From Fodinicola acaciae (GTDB lineage Bacteria; Actinomycetota; Actinomycetes; Mycobacteriales; HKI-0501): 64,000 nt of DNA. The DNA is taken from contig NZ_WOTN01000003.1 in NCBI RefSeq assembly GCF_010993745.1, positions 1,240,001 to 1,304,000 on the forward strand, given 5' to 3'. The notes beneath the pieces were generated by a model, which had not been told where the DNA came from, searched no databases, and worked only from the letters and a program-made list of their open reading frames with translations. A program made the translations under genes and the position numbers. Of this stretch, positions 39,340 to 64,000 are shown piece after piece (within the stretch, counting starts at the first letter, position 1; every line of letters begins with the position of its first letter).

Positions 39340-39816
39340 ATGGACGATGCCCCCAGCCGCGGCGCGGCGTTCCTGGTCACGCAGCTCGGCACGCACTGCG
39401 CGGCGAAGTTCGCCGTGCGTGCGCGGGAGATCGGCCTGACGCCGCCACAGGTCGGCATCCTCGGCCTGATCGCGCGCTCGCCCGGCCAGAGCCAGCAGGC
39501 GGTGGCGACCGCGCTCGGCCTGCTGCCCAGCCGGCTGGTCGGCTTCGTCGACGACCTGGAGGACCAGGGCCTGCTCGAGCGCGTACGCAGCCGCACCGAC
39601 CGGCGCAACTACGCGCTCCAGCTCACCGAGGCCGGCCGTCGCAAGCTCGGCGAGATCGGCCGCGTCGGCCGCGAGCACGAGCAGGACATCTTCGGCAACC
39701 TGACCGACGAGCAGCACACCGAGCTGGTCCGGCTGTTGCAGCGCGTCGCCGACGAGCAGGGCCTGACCGCCGGCGTGCACCCCGGCTTTCGCAGCCTCAA
39801 CAGCGAGGTCTGCTGA
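39340..39816 (+). CDS. MarR-family transcriptional regulator
   Basis: 158 residues from the ATG at 39340. The winged helix is clear (TPPQVGILGLIARSPGQSQQ, SRLVGFVDDLEDQGLLERV, then the wing RSRTDRRNYALQLTEAG). A C-terminal dimerisation helix follows. A TTG at 39316 in frame is less likely because it lies inside the putative operator. It is divergent from the membrane protein and only 1 base from the cysC-like gene. Confidence 0.9.
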   Translation: MDDAPSRGAAFLVTQLGTHCAAKFAVRAREIGLTPPQVGILGLIARSPGQSQQAVATALGLLPSRLVGFVDDLEDQGLLERVRSRTDRRNYALQLTEAGRRKLGEIGRVGREHEQDIFGNLTDEQHTELVRLLQRVADEQGLTAGVHPGFRSLNSEVC

Positions 39817-39817
39817 C

Positions 39818-40915: not shown

Positions 40916-41062
40916 CCATCAGTCATACGTCCGATATCTCATCATGTGGTGTGTTTCGCATGATCTAACTGTCAAATCACAGTAAAGGGAACTTTTATCT
41001 CGCCTGTCCCGTGTGACGAGTCGTGTGAAGCACCTCGTCTTACGGCAAGGAGGCGACAAGCA

Positions 41063-43309: not shown

Positions 43310-43310
43310 T

Positions 43311-44252
43311 GTGGTGCCCAGAGCCGAGAAATTCGACACCATATCGGGTTTTCTGAGCCGGCTCGGCGATCGCGAGGTCGCCGAGCTGGTCGCCACCGCG
43401 ACGCCGCTGGGAGCCGGGATCGGTGGCACCACCTCGCTGCTGCGGATCGGGGACGTGCCGGTCTTCCTCAAGAAGATCCGGCTCACCGACCTGGAGATGG
43501 CACATCCACGGTCCACGGCGAATCTCTACGATGTGCCGGCGTACATGCAATATGGCGCCAACGCGATCGGCTCGACGGCGATCAACGCCTGGCGCGAGGT
43601 CGCCACGCACGAGATGACCACGGAGTGGGTGCTGAGCCGTGCGTACGACGGCTTTCCGTTGACCTACCACTGGCGGGTGCTGCCGGAAACGCTGGCGATA
43701 TACGAAGAACTGGCCGACGTGGAGAAGGTCGTCGCCTATTGGGGTGGTTCGCAGGCCGTACGACGGCGGTTGCTCGCTTTGCACGACTCGTCGGCGGTCG
43801 CCGTGTTGTTCTGCGAATACATTCCTCAGTCGCTGGAGTCCTGCGACGACGCACCGAAACGACAGCTGCTGGACGGCGTGGCGTTCATGAACTCTCACGA
43901 GCTGCTGCACTTCGACCCGCATTTCGGCAATCTGCTGACCGACGGCGAGCGGATCTACTTCGCCGACTTCGGCCTGGCGACCAGCACGCGTTTCGAGCTG
44001 TCGCCGGCCGAGCGCGAGTTCTTCCAGACTCATCGCACGTACGACCACGCGTACGTCCTCAGCTATGTCGATCGCTGGCAGATCTACAAAAAGCACGACA
44101 TCGCCTGGCGCGATCATCTCGCTTTCCTGCGCGAACACGGAGGATCGGCGCTCACGCTGTTGATGACCGAGTTCTTCGACACGCTGATCAACGAAAGCCG
44201 CACCACGCCGTATCCGGTGGCGGAGATCGAAAAACTGCTAAGCGAGCAGTGA
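43311..44252 (+). CDS. Protein kinase-like protein (atypical)
   Basis: 313 residues, GTG start 1 base after the SulP stop, so probably co-transcribed. A compact kinase-like fold: PLGAGIGGTTSLLRIGDVPV with VFLKKIRL supplying a possible ATP lysine, catalytic loop LLHFDPHFGNLLTDGERIYF and metal loop ADFGLATS. The HxDxxxxN and DFG elements suggest activity towards protein or small molecules. There is no membrane or sensor domain. Its 3' end overlaps the convergent LysR gene by 15 bases. Confidence 0.8.
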   Translation: MVPRAEKFDTISGFLSRLGDREVAELVATATPLGAGIGGTTSLLRIGDVPVFLKKIRLTDLEMAHPRSTANLYDVPAYMQYGANAIGSTAINAWREVATHEMTTEWVLSRAYDGFPLTYHWRVLPETLAIYEELADVEKVVAYWGGSQAVRRRLLALHDSSAVAVLFCEYIPQSLESCDDAPKRQLLDGVAFMNSHELLHFDPHFGNLLTDGERIYFADFGLATSTRFELSPAEREFFQTHRTYDHAYVLSYVDRWQIYKKHDIAWRDHLAFLREHGGSALTLLMTEFFDTLINESRTTPYPVAEIEKLLSEQ

Positions 44253-49136: not shown

Positions 49137-49934
49137 TCACCCAGCCAGTGAGCGGCGTGCGCGCAGGCACGACGGAGCGAGCGCGGCCGTCGACAGCGCT
49201 CCGCGCGCGTATCGCGGACCGAGCCGGCCCGGCGCCTGGACGAACCGCGCGACCCACTCCATGCCGGCGGCGCGCATCCACTCCGGGGCGCGGCGCTCGT
49301 TGCCGACCAGGAAGCCAAACCAGCCACCGCAGGTGAGGACGAGCGCCGGCGGCAACCGGTCGAGCCAGCCGGCAACCCACAGCATCTCGGCCGGCGCGCC
49401 CAGGCCGACGACGATCGCGTCCGGCCGGGTCGCGCGCAGCCGGTTGACCACCGGGGCCCAGTCCGGCTGGAAACCGTGCTCGGCCAACACCACCTGGCCG
49501 CCGAGCCGGCCGGCCAGCACCTCGCCGGCCTCGCCGGCCAGCCCGATCGGACCGCCGACCAGCGCCAGCCGCAGCCGCCGGCCGCGCAGCTTTGCCAGCC
49601 CCTGCAACACATCCCAGCCGAGGTCGGTGGTCACCGACCGGCCGATGACCTTGGCACCGGCGAGCTTGGCCAGCCCGACGACCGACGCGCCGTCGGCATA
49701 GACCACGTCGGCTTTCGCCATGGCGGCGACGAAATCCGCGTCGTGCCGGTGGTTGAGGCCGCCGACGTGCAGCGCGAAAGCCAAAAACGGCCTGGTGCCG
49801 CCGACGCGTACGACCGAACGCGCGATGTGGTCGGCGAGCAGCGGCCGCGGCAGGTCGACGACGTCGAACGGTCCGACGCGTACGGTCGCCGGCCGTTCGG
49901 GGGCCGTCGTGACTCGTGCCGACGGGATGGTCAT
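49137..49934 (-). CDS. WecG/TagA/CpsF family glycosyltransferase
   Basis: 265 residues from the ATG at 49934. The GT26 pattern is clear: NHRHDADFVAAMAKADVVYA, DGASVVGLAKLAG, LALVGGPIGLAGEAGEVLAG, PDAIVVGLGAPAEMLWVAG and the terminal GMEWVARFVQAPGRLGPRY. The family transfers N-acetylmannosaminuronate, GlcNAc-type or related residues to an undecaprenyl-linked acceptor on the inner membrane face. It starts 4 bases after the beta-propeller stop, so the two share a transcript, divergent from the polysaccharide operon. Confidence 0.92.
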   Translation of the reverse strand: MTIPSARVTTAPERPATVRVGPFDVVDLPRPLLADHIARSVVRVGGTRPFLAFALHVGGLNHRHDADFVAAMAKADVVYADGASVVGLAKLAGAKVIGRSVTTDLGWDVLQGLAKLRGRRLRLALVGGPIGLAGEAGEVLAGRLGGQVVLAEHGFQPDWAPVVNRLRATRPDAIVVGLGAPAEMLWVAGWLDRLPPALVLTCGGWFGFLVGNERRAPEWMRAAGMEWVARFVQAPGRLGPRYARGALSTAALAPSCLRARRSLAG

Positions 49935-49938
49935 CGCG

Positions 49939-51861
49939 TCACGCCTGGAAAGCGAACATCGCGCCGGAGCGCCAGTCGCGGCGGTCCACACCCGGACCGG
50001 AGACCACCGTCGGGCTGCCGGAAACCCCGCCGTACGCGAAGGAAAAACACCGCAGGTTGCCGTCGGTCGCCACCGAATAGCAGTATTTGCCGCCGGCGTA
50101 GAAACCGGATTTCACCTGCGCGAAGGCGGAGTTGCGGGCTGAGGTGAACTGCTGCGCGCCGACCACGTCACTTTGCTGGGTGAAGTAACGGAAATACAGG
50201 CCGCTCTGCCCGGCGAGGGTGTAGTAGAGCCGGCCACGGTCGAAAAACATCGACGTGATCGACTGGATCTGGTCGTGCCAGTCGGAGTCGGCGACCACCC
50301 GGTCGGCACCGGTGACCGCGACCGCGCTGCCGTACGCACCGCCGCGGAACGGCCGGCGGATCAGCTGTCCGTTGGACTGTCCATAGTAGACAGTGCCGTT
50401 CAGCATGAACGCGCCGCGTACGGTCGACCAGTTGATGCCGCCACCGGATCCGCCGCTCGTCGCGGTCACCCGACTGCCGTTGAAATCGTTGACAGTGCTG
50501 GAAGTGCCGACCTGTTTGTAGACCTTCGCCGGCAGTCCTGGCGCGGCCGTCGACCGTACGCCGGTGCCACCGCTCAACGGCATGAACGCGATCCGCGCGT
50601 GATACTGGTTGGCGATCCGGTCCGTGTCGCTGGCGACCCACAGCCCGGACGGTGTGGCCAGCAGGTCCAGCACGCCGACGCCGAGCGGGTTTCTGGTCGG
50701 GTTCCAGGAAAACGGCAGGCCGTTGACCGGGTCGAGCGCGGCGATGCCGGGCCGCGAGACGGCACCCTCGGCCTGCGCGTTGTTGCCGTTGGGGTTGTTT
50801 TCCCAGCGAAAATGGCCACCGACGTAGACCGCGGTGCCGGTGATCGCGACCGAGTACGCCGTGTCGCCGCCGGTGTAGTCGACCCAGGTCGGCCACAGCC
50901 CGGCACCGCGCGCACCGGTCTCCCAGCGCGCCGACTCGTCGCACGGCGTGCCGGGACCGCGCGGTCCGCCGGTCGTGACGACCACGAAATAGCCGCCGTC
51001 CGGCGAAAACCCGACGTTGCGCATGATCGACGGGAATTCCTCGTCGCACGCCTCGTTGTAGAAGTCGGTCTGCCACCAGTCGACCGCGGCGGCACCTCCG
51101 CCGGTGGTCAGCATCGCGATCTGCGGTCGCGCGTATCCGCCGACCTGGTTGAAGCTGCCGATCGCGACCAGTTTCCCGGCCGGGCTCACGTCCATCTTGC
51201 TGACCTGCAGCGGCGCGCCGTCCTGCGGCTCGGCGAACCGCAGCCGCATGAACGGGTCGTACGCGCCGCTGCTCGCGCTCACCGTCGCGAGCGCCGGCTG
51301 CACCGCACCGCCGACGTGCGTGAACGCGCCGGCCACCCAGAGCCGGCCGCCGGACATCCGCAGGTCGGTCACCGGACCGTCCAGCCGCGGCGCGAAACCG
51401 CTGATCACCGCGCCGTCGCTGACGCGTACGCGGGCCAGGCCCGGCCGCGACACGCCGCGTACGGTCCGGAACGAGCCGCCGACATACACCGTCCGGCCGT
51501 CGCCGGCCGACAGCACCTTGGTGACCTGGCCGTCGACACCCGGGTTGAAGCCGGTGAGTTTGCCGGTGGTCGCGTTGAAAGCGAGCAGCCGCGCGCGCCC
51601 GGTCGCCGAGCCACCGACGTTCTGCGCGCGGGTGAACGTGCCACCGAGCACGATCACGTCGCCGACCTGCGCGACCGAGTCGACCTGGCCGTCGAGCACG
51701 TTCGGCGTCCAGCCGGCCGGGCGCGCGCTGACCAGCTGGCTCTGCCGGGCCTGCGCGGTGGCGCTCGGCGGGCTCAGCGTGACGGCACACACAGTGACGA
51801 CCACGCCGGCGAGGATCCGCGACACGCGGCGGCCGGATACGCTGTGCAACCGCTCGACCAT
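49939..51861 (-). CDS. Secreted beta-propeller-like repeat protein
   Basis: 640 residues with an N-terminal signal (MVERLHSVSGRRVSRILAGV, cleavage near TAQA). The mature part consists of repeats such as GFNPGVDGQVTKVLSAGDG, VYVGGSFRTVRGVSRPGLA and LWVAGAFTHVGGAVQPALA, typical of delta-60-like beta-propeller proteins. No anchor is visible, so it may be secreted or bind the wall or glycan. AGAGG before the ATG fixes the start. It lies back-to-back with the polysaccharide operon. Glycan binding is inferred from location only. Confidence 0.85.
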   Translation of the reverse strand: MVERLHSVSGRRVSRILAGVVVTVCAVTLSPPSATAQARQSQLVSARPAGWTPNVLDGQVDSVAQVGDVIVLGGTFTRAQNVGGSATGRARLLAFNATTGKLTGFNPGVDGQVTKVLSAGDGRTVYVGGSFRTVRGVSRPGLARVRVSDGAVISGFAPRLDGPVTDLRMSGGRLWVAGAFTHVGGAVQPALATVSASSGAYDPFMRLRFAEPQDGAPLQVSKMDVSPAGKLVAIGSFNQVGGYARPQIAMLTTGGGAAAVDWWQTDFYNEACDEEFPSIMRNVGFSPDGGYFVVVTTGGPRGPGTPCDESARWETGARGAGLWPTWVDYTGGDTAYSVAITGTAVYVGGHFRWENNPNGNNAQAEGAVSRPGIAALDPVNGLPFSWNPTRNPLGVGVLDLLATPSGLWVASDTDRIANQYHARIAFMPLSGGTGVRSTAAPGLPAKVYKQVGTSSTVNDFNGSRVTATSGGSGGGINWSTVRGAFMLNGTVYYGQSNGQLIRRPFRGGAYGSAVAVTGADRVVADSDWHDQIQSITSMFFDRGRLYYTLAGQSGLYFRYFTQQSDVVGAQQFTSARNSAFAQVKSGFYAGGKYCYSVATDGNLRCFSFAYGGVSGSPTVVSGPGVDRRDWRSGAMFAFQA

Positions 51862-51995: not shown

Positions 51996-53366
51996 ATGCG
52001 TACGAAACCGCGACTTCCCGAGGGCTGGCCACTGTCGGTGGCCTTCCTCGGCTATCCGCTCTGGTGGGTCCTCGGGATCGGCGAGTTCGTGTTCCTGGCG
52101 GCCGCGGTGCCGCTCGCCGTCGCGCTCGTCCGGCGGCGTGACTGGCGTACGCCGCGCGGCTTCGGCTGGTGGTTGCTGTTCCTCGCGATGGTGCTGGTGA
52201 GCGCCGCACTGCTGCCGGCGCACGCGCCCGGCGCCGTACCGGAGGCGGGATCGCCGCTGACGTACGGATATCGGCTGCTCTGGTATGCCGCCGTCACCGT
52301 CGCGCTGCTCTACATCGGCACGTCGACGGTCAGCGACCTGCGGATGTCGCGGCTGCTCGGCTACATGTTCCTCGTCACGACGATCGGCGGCCTGCTCGGC
52401 GTTTTCGCGCCATGGCTGGATTTCCGGTCGCCGGTGGAGATGCTGCTGCCGCATTCGGTGACCGGCAAGGAGTTCATGCACGTGATCGTGCATCCGGCGA
52501 CCGCCGAGGTGCAGTCGGTCCTCGGATACGTCGAGCCGCGGCCGAAAGCGCCGTTCACGTACGTCAACTCCTGGGGCGCCAACCTGTCGTTCTTCCTGCC
52601 GTTCTTCCTGTTCTCGTGGTGCCGGAGGGACTGCGGCTGGCGGCGGTACGTCGCGCCGTTCGTACTCGCCGCGGCGGCGGTGCCGGTCGTCTACTCGCTC
52701 AACCGGGGCCTGTGGATCGCGCTCGGCGTCGGCGCCGCCTACGGCATCTTCCAGCTCGCGCGCGCCGGCCGCACGTGGATCGTCGGCGCGGCGGCGGGCG
52801 CGGTGCTGGTGATCGTGCTGGCGATCGTCGTGTCGCCGCTCGGCGAGGTGATCAACGAGCGGCTGCAGCATCCACACAGCAACAACCGGCGTTCCGCGCT
52901 CGCCGTCGCCACCGTCGATTCGATGATGCGCGGCTCGCCGCTGGTCGGCTTCGGCAACACGCGCGACGTACAGGGCAACTTCTTCTCGATCGCCGGCTCG
53001 GGCACACCGGACTGTCCGGCCTGCGCGGTGCCGCCGCTGGGCACCCAGGGCCACCTGTGGCTGTTGCTGTTTTCGCAGGGTCTGGTCGGCACCGCCTTCT
53101 TCCTGGCATTTCTGCTGGTCAGGGGCTTCTACGCGTATCGCTGCCGAGACCCGATGGCGGTCGTCGCGCTCGCGCTGCTGCTCTTCTTCGGCATCGAGAT
53201 GTTCGTCTACGACGTGCTCGGGCCACCGGTCTTCACGCTGATGCTCGCGCTGGGGCTTGCCTGGCGGGCCGGGCGCGGGGCGGAAACCGGACACGGCAAA
53301 ATATCGCAAAACATGGCAATTGCTGAGCTATCGTCGCGAGCTATCGCAGAACGCGCGAGGAGGTGA
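51996..53366 (+). CDS. O-antigen ligase / Wzy polymerase-like membrane protein
   Basis: 456 residues with about 11-12 membrane helices and a large extracytoplasmic loop (~160-190). The last loops carry HPHSNNRRSALAVATVDSMM and LVGFGNTRDVQGN, similar to the HSSFL and GxGxGS-type regions of Wzy/WaaL proteins. Such proteins polymerise or ligate lipid-linked oligosaccharides outside the membrane. It is the first gene of an eight-gene run to 61512 and overlaps the next by 4 bases. The promoter should lie in the 134-base gap upstream; no clear consensus was found. Confidence 0.82.
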   Translation: MRTKPRLPEGWPLSVAFLGYPLWWVLGIGEFVFLAAAVPLAVALVRRRDWRTPRGFGWWLLFLAMVLVSAALLPAHAPGAVPEAGSPLTYGYRLLWYAAVTVALLYIGTSTVSDLRMSRLLGYMFLVTTIGGLLGVFAPWLDFRSPVEMLLPHSVTGKEFMHVIVHPATAEVQSVLGYVEPRPKAPFTYVNSWGANLSFFLPFFLFSWCRRDCGWRRYVAPFVLAAAAVPVVYSLNRGLWIALGVGAAYGIFQLARAGRTWIVGAAAGAVLVIVLAIVVSPLGEVINERLQHPHSNNRRSALAVATVDSMMRGSPLVGFGNTRDVQGNFFSIAGSGTPDCPACAVPPLGTQGHLWLLLFSQGLVGTAFFLAFLLVRGFYAYRCRDPMAVVALALLLFFGIEMFVYDVLGPPVFTLMLALGLAWRAGRGAETGHGKISQNMAIAELSSRAIAERARR

Positions 53367-54601
53367 GTGGGATCGACAGCACCGACCTCGTGGTCCGGCA
53401 CCGGCCAGCCGTGGATCTCACACAGGTCGCCGAACGGCTCTGGCCGGCCCCCGCGCGCGTTGAACAGTGCGCGCGGCGGGAGCCGGCGACCTCGGTCGTA
53501 CGCGAGCTGGCCTTCGTCCCCAACGCGCGCGAGCCGCGCATGCTCGTACCAGCGGACCTCCCGCGCGCCGCGTCCGGCGCGGTCCGCCGGTTCAGCGCCG
53601 GGCTCAGCCGCGCCGAGCACCTGACCAGGCTCGTCGCCGGCCTGGCGCTGCGGCTGCCGGGCTCCGGCCGGCTGCTCGCCGACCGGCTGCGGATCACCGC
53701 GACCGGTCATCCGGAGTCGATCGAGACGCACCTGTCGGACCTGCTCGGCATGCCGGTGCTGGTCGGCATCGGCGTCGGCGCGCTGCGCGCCAACCAGAAG
53801 CCGGTGCTGCAGGTCTTCGACCGCGCCGGCCGCACGGTCGCGTTCGTCAAGGTCGGCGACGGACCGGTGTCGCGCCAGCTGGTCGAGCGCGAGGCTGTGG
53901 CGTTGCGGGAGGTCAACGGCCGGTGCTGGCAGCGGCTGCGTACGCCGACGGTCGTCCACAATGGATGGTGGCGCGATCTGCGGCTGCTGGTGATCTCACC
54001 GGTGCCGGCGACCAGCCGGCCGCGGTTGCGCCGGGCCGGCGGCCCGCCGACCGCGGCGATGGCCGAGCTGGCCGCGGGTTTCGACAGCGGCACAAGGAAA
54101 ATCGCCGACTGCCCGCTGCTGTCGCGGCTGCGTACGACGGCGGATCTGTTGGCGGACGGGGAAAACGCGCGGCGGCTCGGATCGGCGGTCGACGCGATCG
54201 AAGCGCGTGCCGGCGACGTCTCGTTGCGGCTGGGCGGATGGCACGGCGACTGGACGCCGTGGAACATGTCGGCGCGCGGCCAGCAGGTCGGCCTGTGGGA
54301 CTGGGAACGCTTCGACACCGGGGTGCCGGTCGGCTTCGACCTCGTGCACTTTCTCGTCCAGTCCGCGGCGCGCCGGCACGGCATCGCCGAGGCCGTCGTC
54401 GACCACGCGGTTTCGCAGGCGGGACAACGAATCGGGCCGTATGGCGAGCTGATCGGCACGCTCTACACGGCGACCGTCGCGGCGCGATATCTGCACGCGT
54501 CGGAGCCGGCGACGGGCGCGCCGCTGCGCGCGCAGGCACAGCTGATGCTGCGGATGCTCGGCGCACGCGTCGACCGCGTGCCGGAAGGACAGGTGCGATG
54601 A
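53363..54601 (+). CDS. Aminoglycoside phosphotransferase-like kinase in polysaccharide operon
   Basis: 412 residues. The C-terminal half is an APH/choline-kinase-type fold: VAFVKVGDGPVSRQLVEREA (ATP lysine), LRLGGWHGDWTPWNMS (catalytic loop, D and N) and QVGLWDWERFDTGVPVGFDL (metal loop). The N-terminal ~140 residues are an extra domain of unknown role. The GTG at 53363 overlaps the previous stop (GTGA); the AGGAGG there (53358-53363) overlaps the codon, so a slightly later start is possible. It may phosphorylate a sugar or lipid intermediate of the glycan. Confidence 0.8.
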   Translation: MSGIDSTDLVVRHRPAVDLTQVAERLWPAPARVEQCARREPATSVVRELAFVPNAREPRMLVPADLPRAASGAVRRFSAGLSRAEHLTRLVAGLALRLPGSGRLLADRLRITATGHPESIETHLSDLLGMPVLVGIGVGALRANQKPVLQVFDRAGRTVAFVKVGDGPVSRQLVEREAVALREVNGRCWQRLRTPTVVHNGWWRDLRLLVISPVPATSRPRLRRAGGPPTAAMAELAAGFDSGTRKIADCPLLSRLRTTADLLADGENARRLGSAVDAIEARAGDVSLRLGGWHGDWTPWNMSARGQQVGLWDWERFDTGVPVGFDLVHFLVQSAARRHGIAEAVVDHAVSQAGQRIGPYGELIGTLYTATVAARYLHASEPATGAPLRAQAQLMLRMLGARVDRVPEGQVR

Positions 54602-55419
54602 TCGCCAGCTCGGTGCGCAAACCGGTCATCGGAGCGGTCCGTACGGTCGGCCGGTTGACGCCGACTTTCCGTATGTTGCCAAGCTTTCTGGTGGTCGGCG
54701 CGCAGCGCGCCGGCACCACCAGCATGCACAAGCTGCTGTCCGCCCACCCGGCCGTCGCCGCGCCGCTGTTTCTCAAGGGCACCAGCTATTTCGACGTGAA
54801 CTACGACCGCGGACCGTCCTGGTATCGCGGCCACTTTCCGGTGCGTACGGGGAAAGTCACCTTCGAGTCGTCCGGCTACTACCTGTTTCATCCGCTCGCG
54901 GCGGCTCGGATCGGCCACGATCTGCCAGACGTACGGCTGGTCGCGCTGGTGCGCGATCCGGTCGAGCGCGCGTATTCGGCCTTCCGGCACGAGCTGGCGC
55001 GTGGATTCGAGACCGAGACCGACTTCGTACGCGCGTTGGCGCTGGAGGACGAGCGGCTGCTCGGTGAGGAGCAACGGATCCGCGCGGATCCGCGCTATCG
55101 CAGCCACAGCCACCGCCATCACGCGTACGCGCGGCGCAGCCTCTACGCACCGCAGCTGCGGCGGCTGCGCGAGGTGGTCGGCGACCGGTTGCTGACCATC
55201 GACGCGGACGCTTTCTTCGCCGAGCCGGAAAAGGAGTTCGTCCGGCTGCAGGAATGGCTCGGCCTGCCGGTGTGGACGCCAGAGGAGTATCCGCGGCTGA
55301 ACGCCAGGCCCGGCTCGGCGTTGGAGCCGGCTTTGCGGCAACGACTGCTCGACGGTTTCGAGGCCGCGGACCAGGAACTGGTCGAGTTTCTCGGCGACAT
55401 CCCGAGCTGGCGGCGATGA
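54598..55419 (+). CDS. Sulfotransferase
   Basis: 273 residues. The PAPS 5'-phosphosulfate loop is FLVVGAQRAGTTSMHKLLSA, and the 3'-phosphate motif is VRLVALVRDPVERAYSAFRH. SGYYLFHPLAAARI and the C-terminal RLNARPGSALEPAL match bacterial carbohydrate sulfotransferases. It would transfer sulfate from PAPS to a hydroxyl of the glycan or its precursor. ATGA overlaps couple it to both neighbours. The APS kinase at 39818 could supply PAPS. Sulfation is the most distinctive chemistry of this cluster. Confidence 0.92.
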   Translation: MIASSVRKPVIGAVRTVGRLTPTFRMLPSFLVVGAQRAGTTSMHKLLSAHPAVAAPLFLKGTSYFDVNYDRGPSWYRGHFPVRTGKVTFESSGYYLFHPLAAARIGHDLPDVRLVALVRDPVERAYSAFRHELARGFETETDFVRALALEDERLLGEEQRIRADPRYRSHSHRHHAYARRSLYAPQLRRLREVVGDRLLTIDADAFFAEPEKEFVRLQEWLGLPVWTPEEYPRLNARPGSALEPALRQRLLDGFEAADQELVEFLGDIPSWRR

Positions 55420-56159
55420 CGGACCTGGTTTTGGCCGCCTATCTCCGGATCCCACGCCGGGGTTGGGCCGCCATCGGCGGCTGCGCGCTGATCGGCCTGC
55501 TCGCCGGCGTGGCGGTGTTGCTCGGCCAGCCGGCGAGTTTTCGCGCGACCGTGCCGATCCTGGTCGCCGACCAGCCGGTGGCGGTCGTCGCGCCGGGCCA
55601 GGGCACCGCGAAGTGGATCACCGTGGACACCGAGGCCCGGCGGGTGACCAGTGAGGACGTACTCGCCGAGATTTCCCGCGCCACCGGTGACGGCGATCCG
55701 CTGGCGCATCTCGATCTCGGCGCCGTGCCAGGGACGAAGGTGCTGACGATCGGCTATCGGTCCGGCTCGGCGGCCCAGGCGGTGGCCGGAGTTTCGGCCG
55801 CCGTGAAGGGATATCTGACGGCGCGCACCGACTTTCTGTTGGCACGGCGGTCCGCCGCGGTCGCGGCACTGTCCGGCAACGTCGACCGCCTGGTCGCGGA
55901 GTTGGGTGATACACCGAAAAACGCTGCCGGCAAGGCCGCGCGGCAGCAGCTCTATCGGCGGATCGGCGAGTTGCAGACGGCGATGGTCAACAGCGCCAAC
56001 CTCGGCGTCTATGCCGGCGACGCGCTGCGTACGCCGTCGGTCGCCGCGGAAGGCACCGCCAACCGTCCCGTGCCACTGGTCTCCGGCGCCGTGCTCGGCG
56101 CGCTCGCCGGTCTCTGGTTCGCGCGCCGCACACACACATTGGCGAAAGGCAAGGCATGA
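55416..56159 (+). CDS. Wzz-like membrane protein (chain length / export)
   Basis: 247 residues with a membrane helix at ~17-37 (GWAAIGGCALIGLLAGVAVL) and another near the C-terminus (GAVLGALAGLWFARR), enclosing an extracytoplasmic region. That topology is Wzz/polysaccharide co-polymerase-like. The extracellular part is shorter than in standard Wzz, and no tyrosine-kinase domain follows. It is coupled by ATGA overlaps to the sulfotransferase and GT2. It probably sets chain length or links polymerase and export. Confidence 0.8.
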   Translation: MTDLVLAAYLRIPRRGWAAIGGCALIGLLAGVAVLLGQPASFRATVPILVADQPVAVVAPGQGTAKWITVDTEARRVTSEDVLAEISRATGDGDPLAHLDLGAVPGTKVLTIGYRSGSAAQAVAGVSAAVKGYLTARTDFLLARRSAAVAALSGNVDRLVAELGDTPKNAAGKAARQQLYRRIGELQTAMVNSANLGVYAGDALRTPSVAAEGTANRPVPLVSGAVLGALAGLWFARRTHTLAKGKA

Positions 56160-57073
56160 CCGAGAAAGTCAGCGTGGTCGTCGCGACGCACAAGCGGCCG
56201 GAGCTGTTGCGCGCGGCCGTACGGTCGATCCTCGCGCAGGACTATCGCGGCGAGGTCGAGTGTGTGGTCGTCTTCGACCGCTGCGAACCGGACCATCAGC
56301 TGCGCGAGGAGCTGGTGCCGCTCGGACCCGACCGGTCGCTGGTCGTCATCGGCAACGATCGCACGCCAGGCCTGGCCGGCGCGCGTAATGCCGGTGTCGC
56401 GGCGAGTTCCGGCTCGTTGCTGGCCTTCTGCGATGACGACGACAGCTGGTGGCCGGACAAGCTCGCCAAGCAGGTTGGCTTGTTACGTGCGGAAAACCGC
56501 GACCTGGTGGTGTGCGGCATCGAGATCAACTACGGCGACCGCACGCACCTACGCGTGCCGCGGCCGGCCGACCTGACCGTCGACGAGCTGGCCAGGCGCC
56601 GGGTCATGGAGGCGCATCCGTCGACGGTTTTGGTCACTCGCCAGGCATTCACCCTGATCGGCGAGGTCGATGAGAAGTTGCCCGGCAGTTATGCGGAGGA
56701 TTACGACTGGATGCTGCGTGCGGTGTCGTACGCCTCGGTCGGTGTCGTGCCGGAGCCGCTGGTCGAGGTTTTGTGGCACCGTGGCTCGTATTTCGCCGAG
56801 CGCTGGCAGATGATCATCGACGCTTTGGACTATTGCGTGGCGAAACATCCGGCGCTGCGCAACAGCTCGCGCGGACTTTCCCGGATTTATGGCCAGAAGG
56901 CGTTCGCGTACGCGGCGCTGGGTCGCCGCTCGGACGCGCGGCGGTGGGCCTGGCGGTCGTTGCGGCTGCATCCGGCCGAGCGGCGCTCGTATCTGGCCAT
57001 CCTGGTCAGTGCGCGGCTGATCTCGGCGGCCACCGTCCTGCACCTCGCCCACAACGCCGGCCGGGGGATCTGA
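56156..57073 (+). CDS. Family 2 glycosyltransferase
   Basis: 305 residues, GT-A fold: VSVVVATHKRPELLRAAVRS at the N-terminus, GLAGARNAGVAASSGSLLAF, then CDDDDSWWPDKL with the DxD metal motif, and the acceptor Asp in YAEDYDWMLRAV. No membrane helix, so cytosolic or membrane-peripheral. It adds one sugar from a nucleotide donor; the sugar is unknown. It overlaps the Wzz-like gene by 4 bases and ends 1 base before the next gene. Confidence 0.93.
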   Translation: MTEKVSVVVATHKRPELLRAAVRSILAQDYRGEVECVVVFDRCEPDHQLREELVPLGPDRSLVVIGNDRTPGLAGARNAGVAASSGSLLAFCDDDDSWWPDKLAKQVGLLRAENRDLVVCGIEINYGDRTHLRVPRPADLTVDELARRRVMEAHPSTVLVTRQAFTLIGEVDEKLPGSYAEDYDWMLRAVSYASVGVVPEPLVEVLWHRGSYFAERWQMIIDALDYCVAKHPALRNSSRGLSRIYGQKAFAYAALGRRSDARRWAWRSLRLHPAERRSYLAILVSARLISAATVLHLAHNAGRGI

Positions 57074-57074
57074 C

Positions 57075-58628
57075 GTGACCGAGCAACGGCGTGGAATCGG
57101 CTGGATCTGGCCGCGGCTGCGGCGCAGCTGGCTGCCGCTGGTGCTGGTTTTCGTGGTGGTGGCCGGAGGTGTGGCCGTTGTCGGTGTCGTGCGGCCGGCG
57201 AGCCGCGTCGCGACCGCCAGCGTGCTGATCAATCCCTTGGACGGCAACCCGTACTCGACCGGGTCGCGGGGCCAGAACCTGACCAACCTGCAGACCGAAA
57301 GTCAGCTGGTGACCAGCGACGCGGTGGTGGCGATCGCGAAGCGTACGATCGGCACCGACGAGGACTTTCCAGCGCTGGCGGCGAAAGTCTCGGTCGACAC
57401 ACCGAGCAACACACAGGTGTTGGAGATCAGCTTCGCCGCGCGTACGACTCCGGCCGCGGTCGCCGGCGCCAACGCTTTCGCGAAGGCCTATTTGGCCACG
57501 CGCGCACAACGCGCCGACGCCAACGCCGCTTCGCAACTGGCGCTCTACACCGCTGAGGCCAACAAAATCCGTGCCGCGATGACGTCGACCGGAGCGGACC
57601 TGGCCAACACCAGCGCCACCAGCCCGCGCGGCCAGGTGCTGACGCAGCAGCTCACCGTCTACGCCTCGCAGCTGGCAAAAGTGCAGGCGACGATCAGCGA
57701 CCTGCGGACCAGCCAGCCCGAGCCCGGCCAGGTCATCACGCCGGCCGCGGACGCGACCGGCGGCCTCGGCCTGCCGGTCTATCTGCTCGCCGGCCTGTTG
57801 CTCGGCCTGCTCGCCGCCGCCTTTCTGGCTGGTTGGCTGGCCTTTTCCGACGACCGCGTGTATGTCCCGGCCGATCTTTCTCGCGCCGGCTTCACGGCGC
57901 TCGGCGACGCCGCGCCACTGTCCACTGTGGACGCACCGACCACCGATGCCGACCGCTCCCGGCGAGTCATGGTGTCGGTTGGCGCGACGGCCCCGGCGAC
58001 GCTGCTCGTCGTCGACGCGGCGGTGGCCGCGGCACGGCTGGCGATTTCGTTTGCCAAGGCCGACAACTCGGTGATCCTGATCGACGCCGCGCGCGGCGCG
58101 TTGACCGAGGCGCTCGACGAGCCGGCGATTCCGGGGCTGTCCGAGGTGCTGGTGCGCAAGCGCGAGGCGGTCAAGCTGCTGCGCCGGCCGCGGCCCCGGC
58201 TGGCTTTTCTGGCCAGTGGCGCCGATCCGGATGCGGCGGCCGACCGCTTCCAGTCGGACCGCTGGTCGGCGCAGCTGGCTCTGCTGGCGCAACATGCCGA
58301 CTATGTCGTACTTTCCGCGTCGGCCACGGACAGTCTCGCGCTCGCCAGCTCGTCGTCGGCGGCCATTCTCTGCGCGACCGCCGGGCAGACGCGCGTACGC
58401 GACCTGCGCGCGACGGCCGACGAGCTGGAGCGGTGCGGCGGCAGCGTACTCGGCGTCTTCCTGACCGCCGGCGAGGCGGTGTCCGATTGTCACCCCGCGG
58501 CTGAATCCGAGCAGGAGCAATCGATTTCGCCGGCGCAATCGGAATCCGATCGCGTCGACGTGGCGGCGGCGGAGCGGCCGTCGCCGCGGCCAAAGCAGGC
58601 CGAGCGGACGGCGGCCGGACGACCGTGA
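57075..58628 (+). CDS. Wzz-like protein fused to degenerate BY-kinase domain
   Basis: 517 residues, GTG start. N-terminal helix at ~20-40 and extracytoplasmic Wzz domain (ATASVLINPLDGNPYSTGSR; VLEISFAARTTPAAVAGANA). A second helix lies at ~235-258, followed by a cytosolic domain shaped like a bacterial tyrosine kinase. Walker A is absent (VMVSVGATAPATLLVVDAAV where a GKT/S loop should be), but strands resembling Walker A' (SVILIDAARGAL) and the later YVVLSASA remain. The C-terminus is Ser/Glu-rich without a Tyr cluster. It is probably a pseudokinase regulating export. Confidence 0.82.
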   Translation: MTEQRRGIGWIWPRLRRSWLPLVLVFVVVAGGVAVVGVVRPASRVATASVLINPLDGNPYSTGSRGQNLTNLQTESQLVTSDAVVAIAKRTIGTDEDFPALAAKVSVDTPSNTQVLEISFAARTTPAAVAGANAFAKAYLATRAQRADANAASQLALYTAEANKIRAAMTSTGADLANTSATSPRGQVLTQQLTVYASQLAKVQATISDLRTSQPEPGQVITPAADATGGLGLPVYLLAGLLLGLLAAAFLAGWLAFSDDRVYVPADLSRAGFTALGDAAPLSTVDAPTTDADRSRRVMVSVGATAPATLLVVDAAVAAARLAISFAKADNSVILIDAARGALTEALDEPAIPGLSEVLVRKREAVKLLRRPRPRLAFLASGADPDAAADRFQSDRWSAQLALLAQHADYVVLSASATDSLALASSSSAAILCATAGQTRVRDLRATADELERCGGSVLGVFLTAGEAVSDCHPAAESEQEQSISPAQSESDRVDVAAAERPSPRPKQAERTAAGRP

Positions 58629-60211
58629 CCGCCGCTCGCGTCCCCACGCTGGCCGCCTCGCCGGCCGGCAGCCTCGACGCGATCGCGCGCGGCGGCACGG
58701 CCAACCTGATCGGCGCCGGGGTGTCAGCGGTGGCGACCTTCGCGGTCGTCGCGGTCGTCACCAACCGCGTGCCGACCGAGGTCGCCGGCAGCTTTTTCGC
58801 GTCCACGTCGGTGTTCCTGGTCGCGATCGCGGTCGCCGAGCTGGGGTCGGACGTGTCGCTGGCGCGCTGGCTTCCGCATTATTTGGTGGAAAGGCGTACG
58901 ACCGCGGCGCGCACCTGCCTGCGCGTCTGCCTGCGGTCGGTGCTGGTGGCCGGCATCCTCTGCGGCATCGCGATGTTGATTGCCGGTCCGGCGCTCGCGC
59001 CGCTGGTCGGCGGCGCGACCGACCACCGGCAGGTGACCGTCGGCCTGCTGGCATTGGCGGTGTTCGTACCGATCGCCGGCGTCTACGACACGGTGATCGC
59101 GGCGACCCGCGGCTATGGCTCGATGCGACCGTCCGCCCTGGTCGAACGCGTCGGGCGCAGCGTTTTGCAGGTGCTGACAGTGGCGATCGCCGTCCTGGCC
59201 GGCGCGCCGATGGCCTGGCTGTCGATCGCCTGGGCCATTCCGTACGGCGTCGGACTGGTCGTCGGCGCGTGGTGGCTGCTGCGGTTGGTACGGGCTGCGG
59301 ACGTTGACCGGCGGCCGAGTCCGATCGGCACTGCCGCGGTGACGCGCGAATACTGGTCGTACACGCTGCCGCGAGCGGTCGCGCGGATCTGCCAGATTCT
59401 GTTGCAGCGGGCCGACATCGTGCTGGTCGCTGTGCTGCGGTCGCCGACCGAGGCAGCGGTCTACACGGCGGCCACGCGGTTCCTGGTGCTCGGCCAGCTG
59501 GTCGCCCTGGCCGTGCAGAACGTCCTCGCGCCGCACCTGTCGAAACTGTTGGCGCGCCACGACCATCGCGGCGCGGAACGGGTTTTCCAGGTGACCACGG
59601 CATGGACGATGGCGGTCAGCTGGCCGCTCTATCTGGTCAGCGTCGGCCTCGCGCCGCTGCTGCTGTCGATCTTCGGCGATCACTACCACTCCGGTGAGTT
59701 GGTGGTCGTCCTGCTCGCGCTGGCAACGGTCGTGTCGGCGGTCTGCGGTCCGGTCGACACCGTCCTGCTGATGGCCGGCGGCAGCAAACGCAGCCTGTTC
59801 AACAACGCCGCTGCGCTGGTCGTCGACCTGGTTTTGGACGTATTGCTGATCCCCTCGCTCGGGATGACCGGCGCGGCGATCGGCTGGGCCGCCGCGATCG
59901 TCGTTCGCAACGTGCTGCCGCTCGCGCAGGTGCGCGGCCAGCTGCACATGACGCCGTTCACCAAGGCGGTCTGGTGGGTCGCCGGCCTGACCGTCGTCTG
60001 CTTCGGCCTGCCGCCGCTCGCGCTGCGGTTTTTCTTTGGCCTGCAATGGTGGTCGGCGACCGTGTTGGTGGCGGTCTGCTCCGCCGGCTACGCCGCCGCG
60101 CTGCTGAGCCGGCCGGACCTGCTCGCCCTGGACTCCTTTGCCAGCATGCTGCCGCGCCGGCTGCGTCCGCTGATCACCCGCACCGCCACGCTGAAGGAAA
60201 ACTACTCATGA
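58625..60211 (+). CDS. Wzx-type polysaccharide flippase
   Basis: 528 residues with about 14 membrane helices of the MOP/polysaccharide-transport fold. Typical pieces are GGTANLIGAGVSAVATFAVV near the N-terminus, YWSYTLPRAVARICQILLQR and ADIVLVAVLRSPTEAAVYTA. It would flip undecaprenyl-linked repeat units to the outer face for the Wzy-like polymerase. GTGA and ATGA overlaps join it to both neighbours. Confidence 0.92.
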   Translation: MTAARVPTLAASPAGSLDAIARGGTANLIGAGVSAVATFAVVAVVTNRVPTEVAGSFFASTSVFLVAIAVAELGSDVSLARWLPHYLVERRTTAARTCLRVCLRSVLVAGILCGIAMLIAGPALAPLVGGATDHRQVTVGLLALAVFVPIAGVYDTVIAATRGYGSMRPSALVERVGRSVLQVLTVAIAVLAGAPMAWLSIAWAIPYGVGLVVGAWWLLRLVRAADVDRRPSPIGTAAVTREYWSYTLPRAVARICQILLQRADIVLVAVLRSPTEAAVYTAATRFLVLGQLVALAVQNVLAPHLSKLLARHDHRGAERVFQVTTAWTMAVSWPLYLVSVGLAPLLLSIFGDHYHSGELVVVLLALATVVSAVCGPVDTVLLMAGGSKRSLFNNAAALVVDLVLDVLLIPSLGMTGAAIGWAAAIVVRNVLPLAQVRGQLHMTPFTKAVWWVAGLTVVCFGLPPLALRFFFGLQWWSATVLVAVCSAGYAAALLSRPDLLALDSFASMLPRRLRPLITRTATLKENYS

Positions 60212-61512
60212 AGTCACTCCCCCGCCGCGCGCTCAACGCCGCCAAGTTCCGCGGCCGCAAGGTCGCACTTCGCAGCCGTACGACCGCGTTGGCGCTCGCC
60301 GACCGTGCCACCAGCGCCGCTCGCCGTAACGTGCCGGAGCCGATCCGGCTGCGGCTGTCGCGCACCTTCCTTCGGCCGGCGCAACCCGCGCGCGTGTCGA
60401 TCGACAAACTGTTGCTCGGAGCGCAAGGCGGCCTCAGCGCGACCGATTTCGCGCGTGTCACTGGCAATCCGCTCTGGCCGTCGACGCGCGTCGCCGACGG
60501 TCCGCATGTCGCCTTGTTGCAGGCCGGCGCCGTCACCGACGACGACATCCTGGCGAGCCGCTATGGCCAGCTCGGGTTGGCCTGCCTGCGCGCCACCGGC
60601 GGCTTTTTCTGGGCCGACTCGCCGGCCGGGGTGGTCGAGGTCGCGCGCGATTTCCTCGCGCGGCGCCGATCCACCGGCGGGTACGAGCCGCGTGCCAACC
60701 AGAGCGGCACCGACGATCCGATCCTGGTGGAGAAGATCCGCGACTCCGACTGCTATTCGGTGCTGGACGGCCATCACCGGATCGCGCTCGCCTACGCGGC
60801 GGGTGAGACCGCGGTTTCCGTTGTCGTGAAACGTACGTCCACCAGCACGCCGCTGCAGGAGCTGCTGCGCCGGATGAGCTGGCTGGAAGGCTCGACCGAG
60901 CTTTATCAGCCGGTGGACTTCCCGGAGCTGAAAAGCTGGACGCTGGTGCGGCAGTGCACCGACCGGCTGGACAAGATGCAGAAATTTCTCGACACCCGGC
61001 GCATTTTCGGCTCCTACCTCGATGTCGCGAGCTGCTATGGCTGGTTCGTCGAACGCATGTCGGCGGTCGGCTTCGTCGCGGAAGGCATCGAAAAAGACCC
61101 GCTGGCGGTGCCGCTGGGGACGGCGATCTACCGGCTCCAGCCCGGCATGGTCCACAGTGGACAGTGCGAGGAGTTCCTGCGCGGCGGCCGGGTCTGGGAC
61201 GTGGTCTCCTGCTTCAGCCTGCTGCACCATTTCGTCCTCGGCCGCGGCTCGGTGAGTGCCGAGGAGCTGGTCAAGCTGCTCGACGCGGCGACCGGATCGG
61301 TGCTGTTCCTGGACATGGGCCAGGAGCACGAGGACTGGTTCGGCACCAGCCTCGCCGGCTGGGACGCCGAGCGGATCAGGGCTTTCCTTGCCGAGCACGG
61401 CACTTTCGACGAGATCGTCGACCTCGGTCCGGACAGCGACGGCGTCGGCGCGTACGCCGGCAACTACGGCCGGCACCTCTTCGCCTGCGTCCGTCAAGCG
61501 GTGTCGAGGTAG
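60208..61512 (+). CDS. ParB-like / SAM-dependent methyltransferase fusion
   Basis: 434 residues. The N-terminal part contains DSDCYSVLDGHHRIALAYAA (GHHRIA at ~188-193), the signature of ParB/Srx-like nucleotide-binding domains. The C-terminal part begins near 267 with GSYLDVASCYGWFVERMSAV, a class I methyltransferase motif I, followed by VVSCFSLLHHFVLGR and VLFLDMGQEHEDWF. The pairing could phosphorylate or hydrolyse and methylate a glycan terminus; terminal methyl or phosphate groups cap O-antigens in other bacteria. It is the last gene of the coupled operon, and its last 19 bases overlap the convergent response regulator. Confidence 0.8.
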   Translation: MKSLPRRALNAAKFRGRKVALRSRTTALALADRATSAARRNVPEPIRLRLSRTFLRPAQPARVSIDKLLLGAQGGLSATDFARVTGNPLWPSTRVADGPHVALLQAGAVTDDDILASRYGQLGLACLRATGGFFWADSPAGVVEVARDFLARRRSTGGYEPRANQSGTDDPILVEKIRDSDCYSVLDGHHRIALAYAAGETAVSVVVKRTSTSTPLQELLRRMSWLEGSTELYQPVDFPELKSWTLVRQCTDRLDKMQKFLDTRRIFGSYLDVASCYGWFVERMSAVGFVAEGIEKDPLAVPLGTAIYRLQPGMVHSGQCEEFLRGGRVWDVVSCFSLLHHFVLGRGSVSAEELVKLLDAATGSVLFLDMGQEHEDWFGTSLAGWDAERIRAFLAEHGTFDEIVDLGPDSDGVGAYAGNYGRHLFACVRQAVSR

Positions 61513-62123
61513 GCGAGGACAGCCAGTACGCGGCGGTGGTCCTCGTCGGTGGCGGCGAGGCCGAGCTTGGTGAGGATGCTGCCCACGTGCGTCTCCACGG
61601 TCCGCTCGGTCAGCCAGAGCCGGCGCGCGATGCCGACGTTCGTACGGCCCTCGGCCATCAGGCCCAGCACCTCACGCTCGCGCCGCGTCAGGCTGTCGAG
61701 CGGGTTCTGGCCGATCAGCCGCGCCACCACCTCCGGATCGAGCGCGGAGCCACCGCCGGCCACGCGCCGCAGCGCGTCGAGGAAATCATCGACGTCCAGC
61801 ACACGGTCCTTGAGCAGATAGCCAAAACGGCCACTGCTGACCAGCTCGACCGAGTGCCGCGTCTCGACGTGCTGCGACAGCAACACGATGCCAAGCCGCG
61901 GAAACTCCTTCCGGATCCGCCGCGCCGCGCGAGCGCCGTCGTCGGTGCCGTCCGGCGGCATCCGGATGTCGACGATCGCGAGATCCGGCCGCTGCGCGCG
62001 TACGGCCTCCACCAGGCTCGGCGCATCCGGCGCCTTGGCGGCGATCTCATGGCCGGCGTCGGCGAGCAGACGCGCGAGACCTTCGCGAAAGAGCACCGAG
62101 TCCTCGCCGATCACGATGCGCAC
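61494..62123 (-). CDS. NarL/LuxR-type response regulator
   Basis: 209 residues. The receiver domain has the phospho-acceptor D52 in DLAIVDIRMPPDG, acidic pair ED at 7-8 and Lys in LLKDRVLDVDD. The C-terminal GerE HTH follows (SLTRREREVLGLMAEGRTNV, LWLTERTVETHVGSILTKLG). Its start overlaps the histidine kinase stop by 13 bases, a coupled cognate pair. It faces the polysaccharide operon end; control of that operon is only a guess. Confidence 0.94.
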   Translation of the reverse strand: MRIVIGEDSVLFREGLARLLADAGHEIAAKAPDAPSLVEAVRAQRPDLAIVDIRMPPDGTDDGARAARRIRKEFPRLGIVLLSQHVETRHSVELVSSGRFGYLLKDRVLDVDDFLDALRRVAGGGSALDPEVVARLIGQNPLDSLTRREREVLGLMAEGRTNVGIARRLWLTERTVETHVGSILTKLGLAATDEDHRRVLAVLAYLDTA

Positions 62124-64000
62124 GGCAGCACCGCCTCCACCGTCGTGCCGCCGCCGAGTGCGCTGTCGACCAGCAGTTTTCCGCCGACCGCCGCGACCCG
62201 ATCGGTGAGCCCGACCAGTCCGGATCCCGGGCCGACGCGCGCACCGCCGCGGCCGTCGTCCATCACGCGTACGCGCAGACAGCCGTCCGCCTGGCCAACG
62301 GACAGCGCGATCCGGTCGGCGGCGGCGTGCTTGACCGCGTTGGCGATCGCCTCGCTGGCCACGTAATAGGCGGTTGTCACGACGTCGTCCGGCAGGTCGC
62401 CGGGCGGCAGGTCGACGCGTACGTCCACCGGACTGCTGCGGGTCAGCGCGGCGAGCGCTGGACCGAGACCATCGTCGAGGCTGCTCGGGCGCAGGCCGTG
62501 CGCGATCTGCCGCAGCTCGGCGACCGCCGTGCCCAGCTCGGCGACGGCCTCGTCGATCAGGCCATCGACCTCGACACTGCCGTCGTCCAGGTGGCGCTGC
62601 GCCAACCGGAGCGTCATGCCGAGCGCGACCAGCCGCTGCTGCGCGCCGTCATGCAGGTCGCGCTCCAACCTCCGCCGCTCCTGATAGCCGACATGCAGCA
62701 GCCGCGCGCGACTGGATTCGACCGCGCGCAAGGCGTTCGCCAGTTCCAGGCGCAGCCGCACGACCTCGACGATCAGCGCGGCCGCGGCGGCGATCTCACG
62801 CAGCAGCTCGCGCGAGGCGGCGCCGGCCAGCAGGCCGATCCGCTGGCCGCCGAGCATGATCGGCGCGTGGCCGTCGACCTCCGGCATCGCGGCGCCATTG
62901 GCATCGACGAACTCCGACTCGCCAGGCAGCACGTAACCGACGCGCAGCGACGGATCGCGCATGGCCACACGCAACACGTCTTCCAGCTGCTCCGGCCGCG
63001 CCGTGCCGGCGTTGGTGCCCTGCCGGAGGTTGTCGAGCGCGGCCAGCGCGGCGCGGCGCAGCGGATAGAGGCGCCGGTCGACCTGCCGTTGCAGGCCGGC
63101 GCGCAGCGGACTCAGCGCGACCGCGCACAACGCGGTGGCACCGGCCGCCGCGACGGCGGACGTACGGCCGAGAATCAGGCCGCCGGCAAAGGATACTGCG
63201 CTGAAGATCGCCAGCAGCGCGGCGGTGAGCAGGCCGTACGTGACCGCCGCGCTGATCGCCTTGTCGACGTCGTAGAGGTCGTGCCGGAGCACCGCGATGG
63301 TGGTCGCGGCCGGTACGGCCAGATAGGTCGCGGCGAGGCCAACCAGCACGAACTCGTCGGGCCGGCCGAGCACCGCGTATCCGGTCCAGCACAGCAACAG
63401 CGTCGCCGGCAGGAAGCCGCCGGCCAGCGCGAACCACTTCAGCTGCGCTCGCCGTACGGCGTCGGCGCGCCGATAGCGCAGCACCATCGACACCGCCGCG
63501 GCGACGAGGAAACCCAGCAACGTAGGCAAAAGTACGGCCGCACCGGCGACCGCCACAGTGGACATCGGCTGGCCGTTCTCGTACGGCGGCCGATATGAGC
63601 CGGGGTCGAGCGCGATGACCAGCTGGATCGCCAGCGCGTCGGCGAGCAGCGCGGCGATCCCCCAGCGCCAGCGACGGCTCGGCAGCCGGCCGTCCGGCAG
63701 GAACAGCACCAGCAGGACCACCGGCACGTACCACCAGACCCAGTCGCCCTGCAGCGCCGCGACCAGCCACGACCACTCGGCCACCCGCCCGGCGGCGCTG
63801 ACCGACAGGTATGTGTCGCCGGCGGCGACCGCGATCGGCGTGAGGCCGATCCAGCACAGCAACGCGCCGACCGGATTCGCCGGCCGGAGCCGCGCGACGA
63901 GCAGGCCGAGGAACGTCGAGACCGCGCCTATTGCGGCGGCGCCACCGACATAGCCGATCGCGTCGGCGGTCGGTGCGTACGTGAGCAGCCAGATGCCGAC
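62111..64000 (-). CDS. Sensor histidine kinase (HisKA_3 type, start beyond window)
   Basis: 629 residues are visible and the frame is open to the window edge, so the N-terminus is missing. Seven or more membrane helices occupy the visible N-terminal half. A GAF-like region follows. The dimerisation/phosphotransfer motif is YQERRRLERDLHDGAQQRLV (acceptor His), with N-box ASEAIANAVKHA and G-box VMDDGRGGARVGPGSGLVGL. NarL-type kinases of this form sense membrane or extracellular cues in actinomycetes. It would phosphorylate the adjacent response regulator. Confidence 0.93.
   Translation of the reverse strand, partial: VGIWLLTYAPTADAIGYVGGAAAIGAVSTFLGLLVARLRPANPVGALLCWIGLTPIAVAAGDTYLSVSAAGRVAEWSWLVAALQGDWVWWYVPVVLLVLFLPDGRLPSRRWRWGIAALLADALAIQLVIALDPGSYRPPYENGQPMSTVAVAGAAVLLPTLLGFLVAAAVSMVLRYRRADAVRRAQLKWFALAGGFLPATLLLCWTGYAVLGRPDEFVLVGLAATYLAVPAATTIAVLRHDLYDVDKAISAAVTYGLLTAALLAIFSAVSFAGGLILGRTSAVAAAGATALCAVALSPLRAGLQRQVDRRLYPLRRAALAALDNLRQGTNAGTARPEQLEDVLRVAMRDPSLRVGYVLPGESEFVDANGAAMPEVDGHAPIMLGGQRIGLLAGAASRELLREIAAAAALIVEVVRLRLELANALRAVESSRARLLHVGYQERRRLERDLHDGAQQRLVALGMTLRLAQRHLDDGSVEVDGLIDEAVAELGTAVAELRQIAHGLRPSSLDDGLGPALAALTRSSPVDVRVDLPPGDLPDDVVTTAYYVASEAIANAVKHAAADRIALSVGQADGCLRVRVMDDGRGGARVGPGSGLVGLTDRVAAVGGKLLVDSALGGGTTVEAVLPCAS

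Follow-up and report, generated by a model that had tools for sequence, protein, structure and literature searches.

Gene organization of the locus

The window analyzed here is a 64,000-base stretch of the genome of Fodinicola acaciae, a soil and plant-root actinomycete (C3:1240001–1304000, in an assembly of 8,860,993 bases and four contigs). Its central feature is a run of eight + strand genes at positions 51996–61512, for which the original prediction proposed an operon that produces a probably sulfated surface glycan. All eight genes were found in this span, although the first start is ambiguous (ATG at 51996 or GTG at 52038). The seven junctions, as read from the sequence, comprise six 4-base overlaps (GTGA at 53363 and 58625; ATGA at 54598, 55416, 56156, and 60208) and a 1-base gap at 57074, exactly the kinds of junction that had been claimed. 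In comparison, only 21 of 89 same-strand junctions in the rest of the window and six further genome stretches have a 4-base overlap or a 1-base join. Given this background, the chance of finding seven coupled junctions out of seven is approximately 5e-5, indicating that the run is beyond chance. This arrangement would fit translationally coupled genes in a single transcription unit. A sigma-70-like promoter was not found for the operon, a result that says little in an actinomycete.

The first gene (51996–53366) encodes a Wzy/O-antigen-ligase-like membrane protein, and is followed by genes for an aminoglycoside phosphotransferase (APH)-fold small-molecule/glycan kinase (53363–54601) and a sulfotransferase (54598–55419). 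Next are Wzz-like chain-length protein 1 (55416–56159), whose start is the ATGA at 55416 rather than 55254, and a GT2 glycosyltransferase (56156–57073; Glycos_transf_2 E-value 7.8e-21, above the cut-off). The last three genes encode Wzz-like protein 2, which has a bacterial tyrosine kinase-like C-terminus (57075–58628; TIGR01007 E-value 3.5e-10, below the cut-off), a Wzx flippase (58625–60211; Polysacc_synt and MatE above their cut-offs), and a fusion of a SerK/ParB-like domain with a WbdD-like S-adenosylmethionine-dependent methyltransferase (60208–61512; gene 8). Inspection of the kinase-like C-terminus of Wzz-like protein 2 revealed no recognizable Walker A motif, so tyrosine kinase activity is improbable for this protein. 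In the order of the genes, these proteins resemble WpsJ, WpsI, WpsH (the first three), WpsA (GT2), WpsK (Wzz-like protein 2), and WpsG (Wzx) of the wps-1 cluster, which is compared below.

Divergent from the operon are two – strand genes separated from each other by 4 bases. One encodes a secreted beta-propeller (49939–51861; DUF5122) with a signal-peptide-like N-terminus, and the other a WpsC-like WecG/TagA/CpsF (GT26) glycosyltransferase (49137–49934; PF03808 E-value 1.1e-33). Both had been predicted as a divergent pair. On the other side, the operon is directly followed by a convergent two-component-like pair on the – strand (61494–63862). Judged by sequence, the pair consists of a sensor kinase and a LuxR-type response regulator, and the gene of the latter shares 19 bases, in opposite orientation, with the last gene of the operon.

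Sulfotransferase and PAPS supply

The sulfotransferase matches Sulfotransfer_3 (51 bits) and Sulfotransfer_1 above their cut-offs, as well as the structures of NDST and 3-OST. It retains the 5'-phosphosulfate loop and the 3'-phosphate motif RDPxERxxS for binding 3'-phosphoadenosine 5'-phosphosulfate (PAPS), and these motifs are invariant among its orthologs. In searches of the genome limited to PF13469 and PF00685, it is the only protein of these families, and no equivalent of the second sulfotransferase of wps-1 (WpsB) was found.

Genes for PAPS synthesis are located on both sides of the operon. Upstream, four + strand genes in a row (39340–44252) encode a MarR-family regulator, an adenosine 5'-phosphosulfate (APS) kinase, a transporter fusion, and a protein with a weak protein-kinase match, and are predicted to be a sulfate uptake and activation group. 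The APS kinase (CysC; 39818–40915; PF01583 E-value 1.2e-56) carries an N-terminal PUA_2 remnant of ATP sulfurylase and is the only one in the genome (a single genome match). It is directly followed by a fusion of a SulP sulfate permease with a carbonic anhydrase (41063–43309; PF00916 E-value 8.6e-71, PF00484 E-value 4.9e-40). Downstream, beyond the window, a – strand run encodes a phosphoglycosyltransferase (PGT), CysQ, CysD, and CysN (C3:1334864–1339444), followed by a CBM96 protein; these genes lie 31–38 kb from the operon. The CysN gene (C3:1334864–1336108) is the only one in the genome above the cut-off. The CBM96 protein, encoded about 31 kb downstream, has no GH26 Pfam match itself and is 28–42% identical by BLAST to GH26-family proteins of other loci. 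Also close to this run are the rmlABCD genes for dTDP-rhamnose. No initiating PGT is encoded inside the window; the nearest is the one in this run, about 36 kb downstream of the operon. The guess that further parts lie elsewhere was thus borne out by the search proposed for such an enzyme.

Kinase and methyltransferase fusion

The kinase has no significant Pfam match. Its AlphaFold model (predicted local distance difference test score 91) has APH(3') kinases as the best PDB matches, and K163, HGDxxxxN, and WDxE are invariant in 33 orthologs. The APH-like motif HxDxxxxN and the following catalytic Asp are both present. Accordingly, the earlier label of a phosphotransferase-like kinase holds as to a kinase, with its catalytic motifs intact, and is corrected to the APH fold. 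The sulfotransferase ortholog adjoins this kinase in most of the 19 genomes, among 101 relatives, in which the kinase was found.

For gene 8, the methyltransferase fusion that had been predicted can be described more precisely. The N-terminal part has a DGHHR motif as in the free serine kinase SerK and matches positions 166–203 of the SerK profile (E-value 0.006). The methyltransferase part has a weak Pfam match and aligns with WbdD in hhalign (E-value 9.4e-6, 26% identity over 171 columns); the WbdD query sequence aligns to PDB entry 4azw without mismatch at residues 2–218. WbdD requires Y16, H132, H133, and R203 for phosphate methylation (PMC3482155). In six of six sequences aligned with gene 8, Y16, R36, H132, and H133 of WbdD are conserved, and the R203 column reads V/V/R/R/V/H where the alignment is uncertain. 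Two histidines are also present in other methyltransferases of this class. By fold, WbdD ranks first but is tied within 1 Z, and it is absent among the HMMER matches of the methyltransferase profile in PDB up to an E-value of 10. The link to WbdD therefore rests on the hhalign result, on a motif shared ahead of the core, and on the conserved residues. Gene 8 probably joins a SerK/ParB-like domain to a WbdD-like methyltransferase. Outside Fodinicola, this fusion occurs only in Thermomonosporaceae and one Marmoricola genome among the loci compared. The methyltransferase genes located after Wzx in Glycomyces and Catellatospora loci were also considered as WbdD-like and were rejected because they do not match the WbdD-like model.

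Conservation among actinobacteria

A block of Wzz, Wzy, kinase, sulfotransferase, and Wzx genes recurs across 80 named actinobacterial loci from Streptosporangiaceae, Micromonosporaceae, Thermomonosporaceae, Nocardioidaceae, Geodermatophilaceae, Glycomycetaceae, and other families. These loci, which do not include Actinoplanes missouriensis, were picked by their sulfotransferase, so the counts describe its neighbors rather than overall frequency. Orthologs of the Wzy-like protein are present in 78 of the 80 loci, the kinase in 74, Wzz in 73, and Wzx in 72, while CysC is present in 40 and CysN in 20. The propeller, which has orthologs in many related loci, is found in 31. At least one PAPS gene is present in 40 of the 63 full-length loci, compared with about 0.6 expected at random; the genomes are related and thus not independent, although the count draws on several families. 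CysH and sulfite reductase were not found near the named loci, indicating that these loci are not ordinary assimilation operons.

A typical Streptosporangiaceae locus encodes CysC, GH26, Wzz, Wzy, kinase, sulfotransferase, Wzx, another sulfotransferase, GT26, GT2, a sulfotransferase designated ST2, CysN, CysD, CysQ, and PGT. Most loci have a second sulfotransferase, and those of Streptosporangiaceae have a third. One of the Streptosporangiaceae sulfotransferases (L101:12189–13115 and its equivalents; identified by Pfam, with a VTGLPRSGTSW start) is encoded directly after Wzx, in loci with up to three such genes. Several other loci of the set have one sulfotransferase, as in F. acaciae, so a second sulfotransferase is not taken as defining the wps-1 type. 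In Micromonospora, a gene for a DUF3048 protein is located between Wzz and Wzy (L061:12446–13420 and its equivalents) and is absent from the Fodinicola operon.

The kinase also co-occurs with a PUA_2-type CysC. With strong matches defined as those over about 250 bits, the counts in the 101 genomes are 18/1/1/81 (both, either one alone, neither), such that 18 of the 20 genomes with either protein have both. Without the largest positive family, the counts are 7/1/1/81. Among 394 genomes drawn from the class, 68 match the kinase profile, some of them weakly. In the sister genome, F. feengrottensis HKI 0501, the sulfotransferase is 75% identical, the contig with the methyltransferase gene also carries the PGT-CysQ-CysD-CysN run, about 20 kb from that gene, and CysC is on the other side of the operon. 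This genome is a draft (L055 and L160 on C26; 74% completeness), and many genes of the locus are broken by apparent frameshifts that are probably assembly errors.

Proposed pathway and alternative explanations

Taken together, these findings make it quite probable that the Fodinicola operon encodes a wps-1 type Wzx/Wzy pathway for a sulfated exopolysaccharide. The gene content, the gene order, the conserved linkage, and the uniqueness in the genome of the sulfotransferase and CysC are direct observations. The sulfated glycan of the original prediction is thus supported as the best reading by the linked and genome-unique PAPS synthesis, the sole PF13469/PF00685 sulfotransferase, the conserved linkage, and the likeness to wps-1, with sulfation itself predicted. 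What each enzyme does, which sugars are used, and where the product is located are inferred from the predicted protein functions. Synthesis would probably begin with the PGT of the downstream run, about 36 kb away, which would transfer the first sugar to undecaprenyl phosphate, and the WecG-type and GT2 enzymes would extend the unit to about three sugars. A sugar hydroxyl is the probable target of the APH-fold kinase, and the phosphate added there may in turn be methylated by the WbdD-like domain. At the cytoplasmic face, the sulfotransferase would add sulfate from PAPS, which would be supplied by CysND and the CysC of the window, with 3'-phosphoadenosine 5'-phosphate removed by CysQ. Wzx would then flip the unit and Wzy polymerize it, with the two Wzz-like proteins setting the length. 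Outside the cell, the secreted propeller and the GH26-related protein may act on the chain, perhaps by trimming or anchoring it. A bolder version, in which the polysaccharide bears both sulfate and methyl phosphate through a split WbdD-type capping or decorating step within a Wzx/Wzy pathway of a non-spore-forming host, is tentative and on present grounds somewhat doubtful.

Several observations weigh against this pathway, and some of them are compatible with other explanations. Sulfate in the product of Fodinicola, as in that of any wps-1 type cluster, is so far a prediction from the genes. Furthermore, the catalytic Glu of NDST, E642, aligns with an invariant Gly61 in 12 of 12 sulfotransferase orthologs, so any catalysis must use another residue. 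For this reason, the protein is classed from its sequence as a PAPS-binding sulfotransferase-fold protein only, and not as an NDST/3-OST type. Sulfotransferases of this superfamily also act on many acceptors. The operon could therefore produce an unsulfated polysaccharide, with a sulfotransferase that is inactive or has another acceptor (a protein, lipid, or small metabolite). However, the PAPS-binding motifs are invariant, and the sulfotransferase gene overlaps both of its neighbors by 4 bases, lies within the Wzy-kinase-sulfotransferase-Wzx block in most related loci, and is joined there by the second and third sulfotransferases noted above. In addition, deletion of wpsH phenocopies the wzx and wzy deletions (PMC13390465). 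An unsulfated polymer is thus rather improbable. The assignments of Wzy and Wzz are a further weak point, resting on weak profile scores and on position: the Wzy_C match (E-value 6.9e-5) scores 23.1 bits against a curated cut-off of 31.7 bits, and the Wzz match of Wzz-like protein 1 has an E-value of 0.009. Pfam calls the family that the Wzy-like protein matches, below the cut-off, O-Antigen ligase, and teichoic acids are among the polymers primed by WecG/TagA enzymes. Instead of a loose exopolysaccharide, the product might accordingly be a cell-wall-linked secondary polymer, possibly still sulfated, that the Wzy-like protein ligates to a lipid or cell-wall anchor. The presence of two Wzz-like proteins argues instead for length-controlled polymerization, and no LytR-CpsA-Psr ligase is present among the operon genes, to which the search for such ligases was confined. 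This explanation is considered unlikely, if worth keeping in view.

The PAPS genes raise a separate question. Most genomes of the order have CysC (85 of 101), so its presence alone is uninformative. The PAPS and PGT genes are located outside the operon at distances of 11–38 kb, and the single CysND copy would have to function in assimilation too, should sulfate be assimilated. These last two points would be compatible with ordinary assimilation genes whose nearness to the operon is incidental. However, CysH is located on another contig, beside a sulfite-reductase-like gene named from sequence, and in many other genera CysC, CysNDQ, and PGT lie within 10 kb of the orthologous block with no CysH nearby. 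CysC is near the block in F. feengrottensis as well. Based on motif knowledge, the CC and CxxC motifs of CysH, which are typical of Fe-S APS reductases, imply that sulfate assimilation need not use PAPS; if CysH reduces APS, PAPS would be needed for sulfation only. Against this, NCBIfam scores CysH above the PAPS-reductase cut-off and below the APS-reductase cut-off. Overall, an incidental association of the PAPS genes appears very unlikely.

Comparison with known systems

In the literature on sulfated actinomycete glycans, only one study, dated 2026 and concerning Actinoplanes missouriensis, was found to be directly relevant. Its wps-1 cluster (AMIS_7280–7380) encodes Wzz (WpsK), Wzy (WpsJ), a kinase-like protein (WpsI), a sulfotransferase (WpsH), Wzx (WpsG), a methyltransferase (WpsF), GH26 (WpsE), GT26 (WpsC), another sulfotransferase (WpsB), and GT2 (WpsA), and is adjoined by AMIS_7390 of the ATP sulfurylase/APS kinase family (PMC13390465). 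Deletion of wpsA, C, G, H, I, J, K, or AMIS_7390 results in defective sporangia, and the authors propose a sulfated polysaccharide of the sporangium matrix, as yet unverified (PMC13390465). The effect of the AMIS_7390 deletion, which they called unexpected (PMC13390465), is predicted by a requirement for PAPS. Judged by gene content and order against the published gene list, the Fodinicola locus has the Wzz, Wzy, kinase-like, sulfotransferase, Wzx, methyltransferase, GT26, and GT2 components in nearly the same order, including the Wzy-kinase-sulfotransferase block with Wzx and Wzz. The operon therefore belongs to this already published cluster type. Sporangium formation depends on wps-1, which encodes two sulfotransferases and a single Wzz. 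The Fodinicola locus, in contrast, is split, has one sulfotransferase, two Wzz-like proteins, and the SerK-like/WbdD-like fusion, and belongs to an organism without spores. GH26 is part of the wps-1 cluster, whereas its relative in Fodinicola is outside the operon. The novelty thus lies in this subtype, marked by its single sulfotransferase, its pair of Wzz-like proteins, and its fusion of a SerK/ParB-like domain with a methyltransferase, in the linked PAPS module, and in the non-sporulating host.

The type strain F. acaciae GKU 173T is non-sporulating, and its aerial hyphae fragment into rods (PMC7232338). The occurrence of the locus in such a species points to a role of the glycan beyond that of a sporangium matrix. 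Published statements restrict bacterial sulfated polysaccharides to cyanobacteria (PMC8205485, PMC13390465). With a conserved locus that brings its own PAPS supply present across many actinobacterial families, the question becomes directly testable, and Fodinicola, with a single PF13469/PF00685 sulfotransferase and a single APS kinase, provides a clean genetic test case.

Two other systems are similar in part. The xss cluster of Synechocystis PCC 6803, which produces synechan, likewise combines a Wzx/Wzy pathway with sulfotransferases, and for synechan the sulfate has been shown chemically (PMC8205485). This likeness is one of workings, and xss differs in being cyanobacterial and plasmid-borne, with eight glycosyltransferases, two sulfotransferases, and its own regulators (PMC8205485). 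WbdD of Escherichia coli O9a is related to gene 8 in its methyltransferase domain, and its pathway likewise includes a kinase. However, WbdD is a single kinase-methyltransferase polypeptide that caps an ABC-exported mannan (PMC3482155), whereas in Fodinicola the two predicted functions are encoded by separate genes within a Wzy-type pathway.

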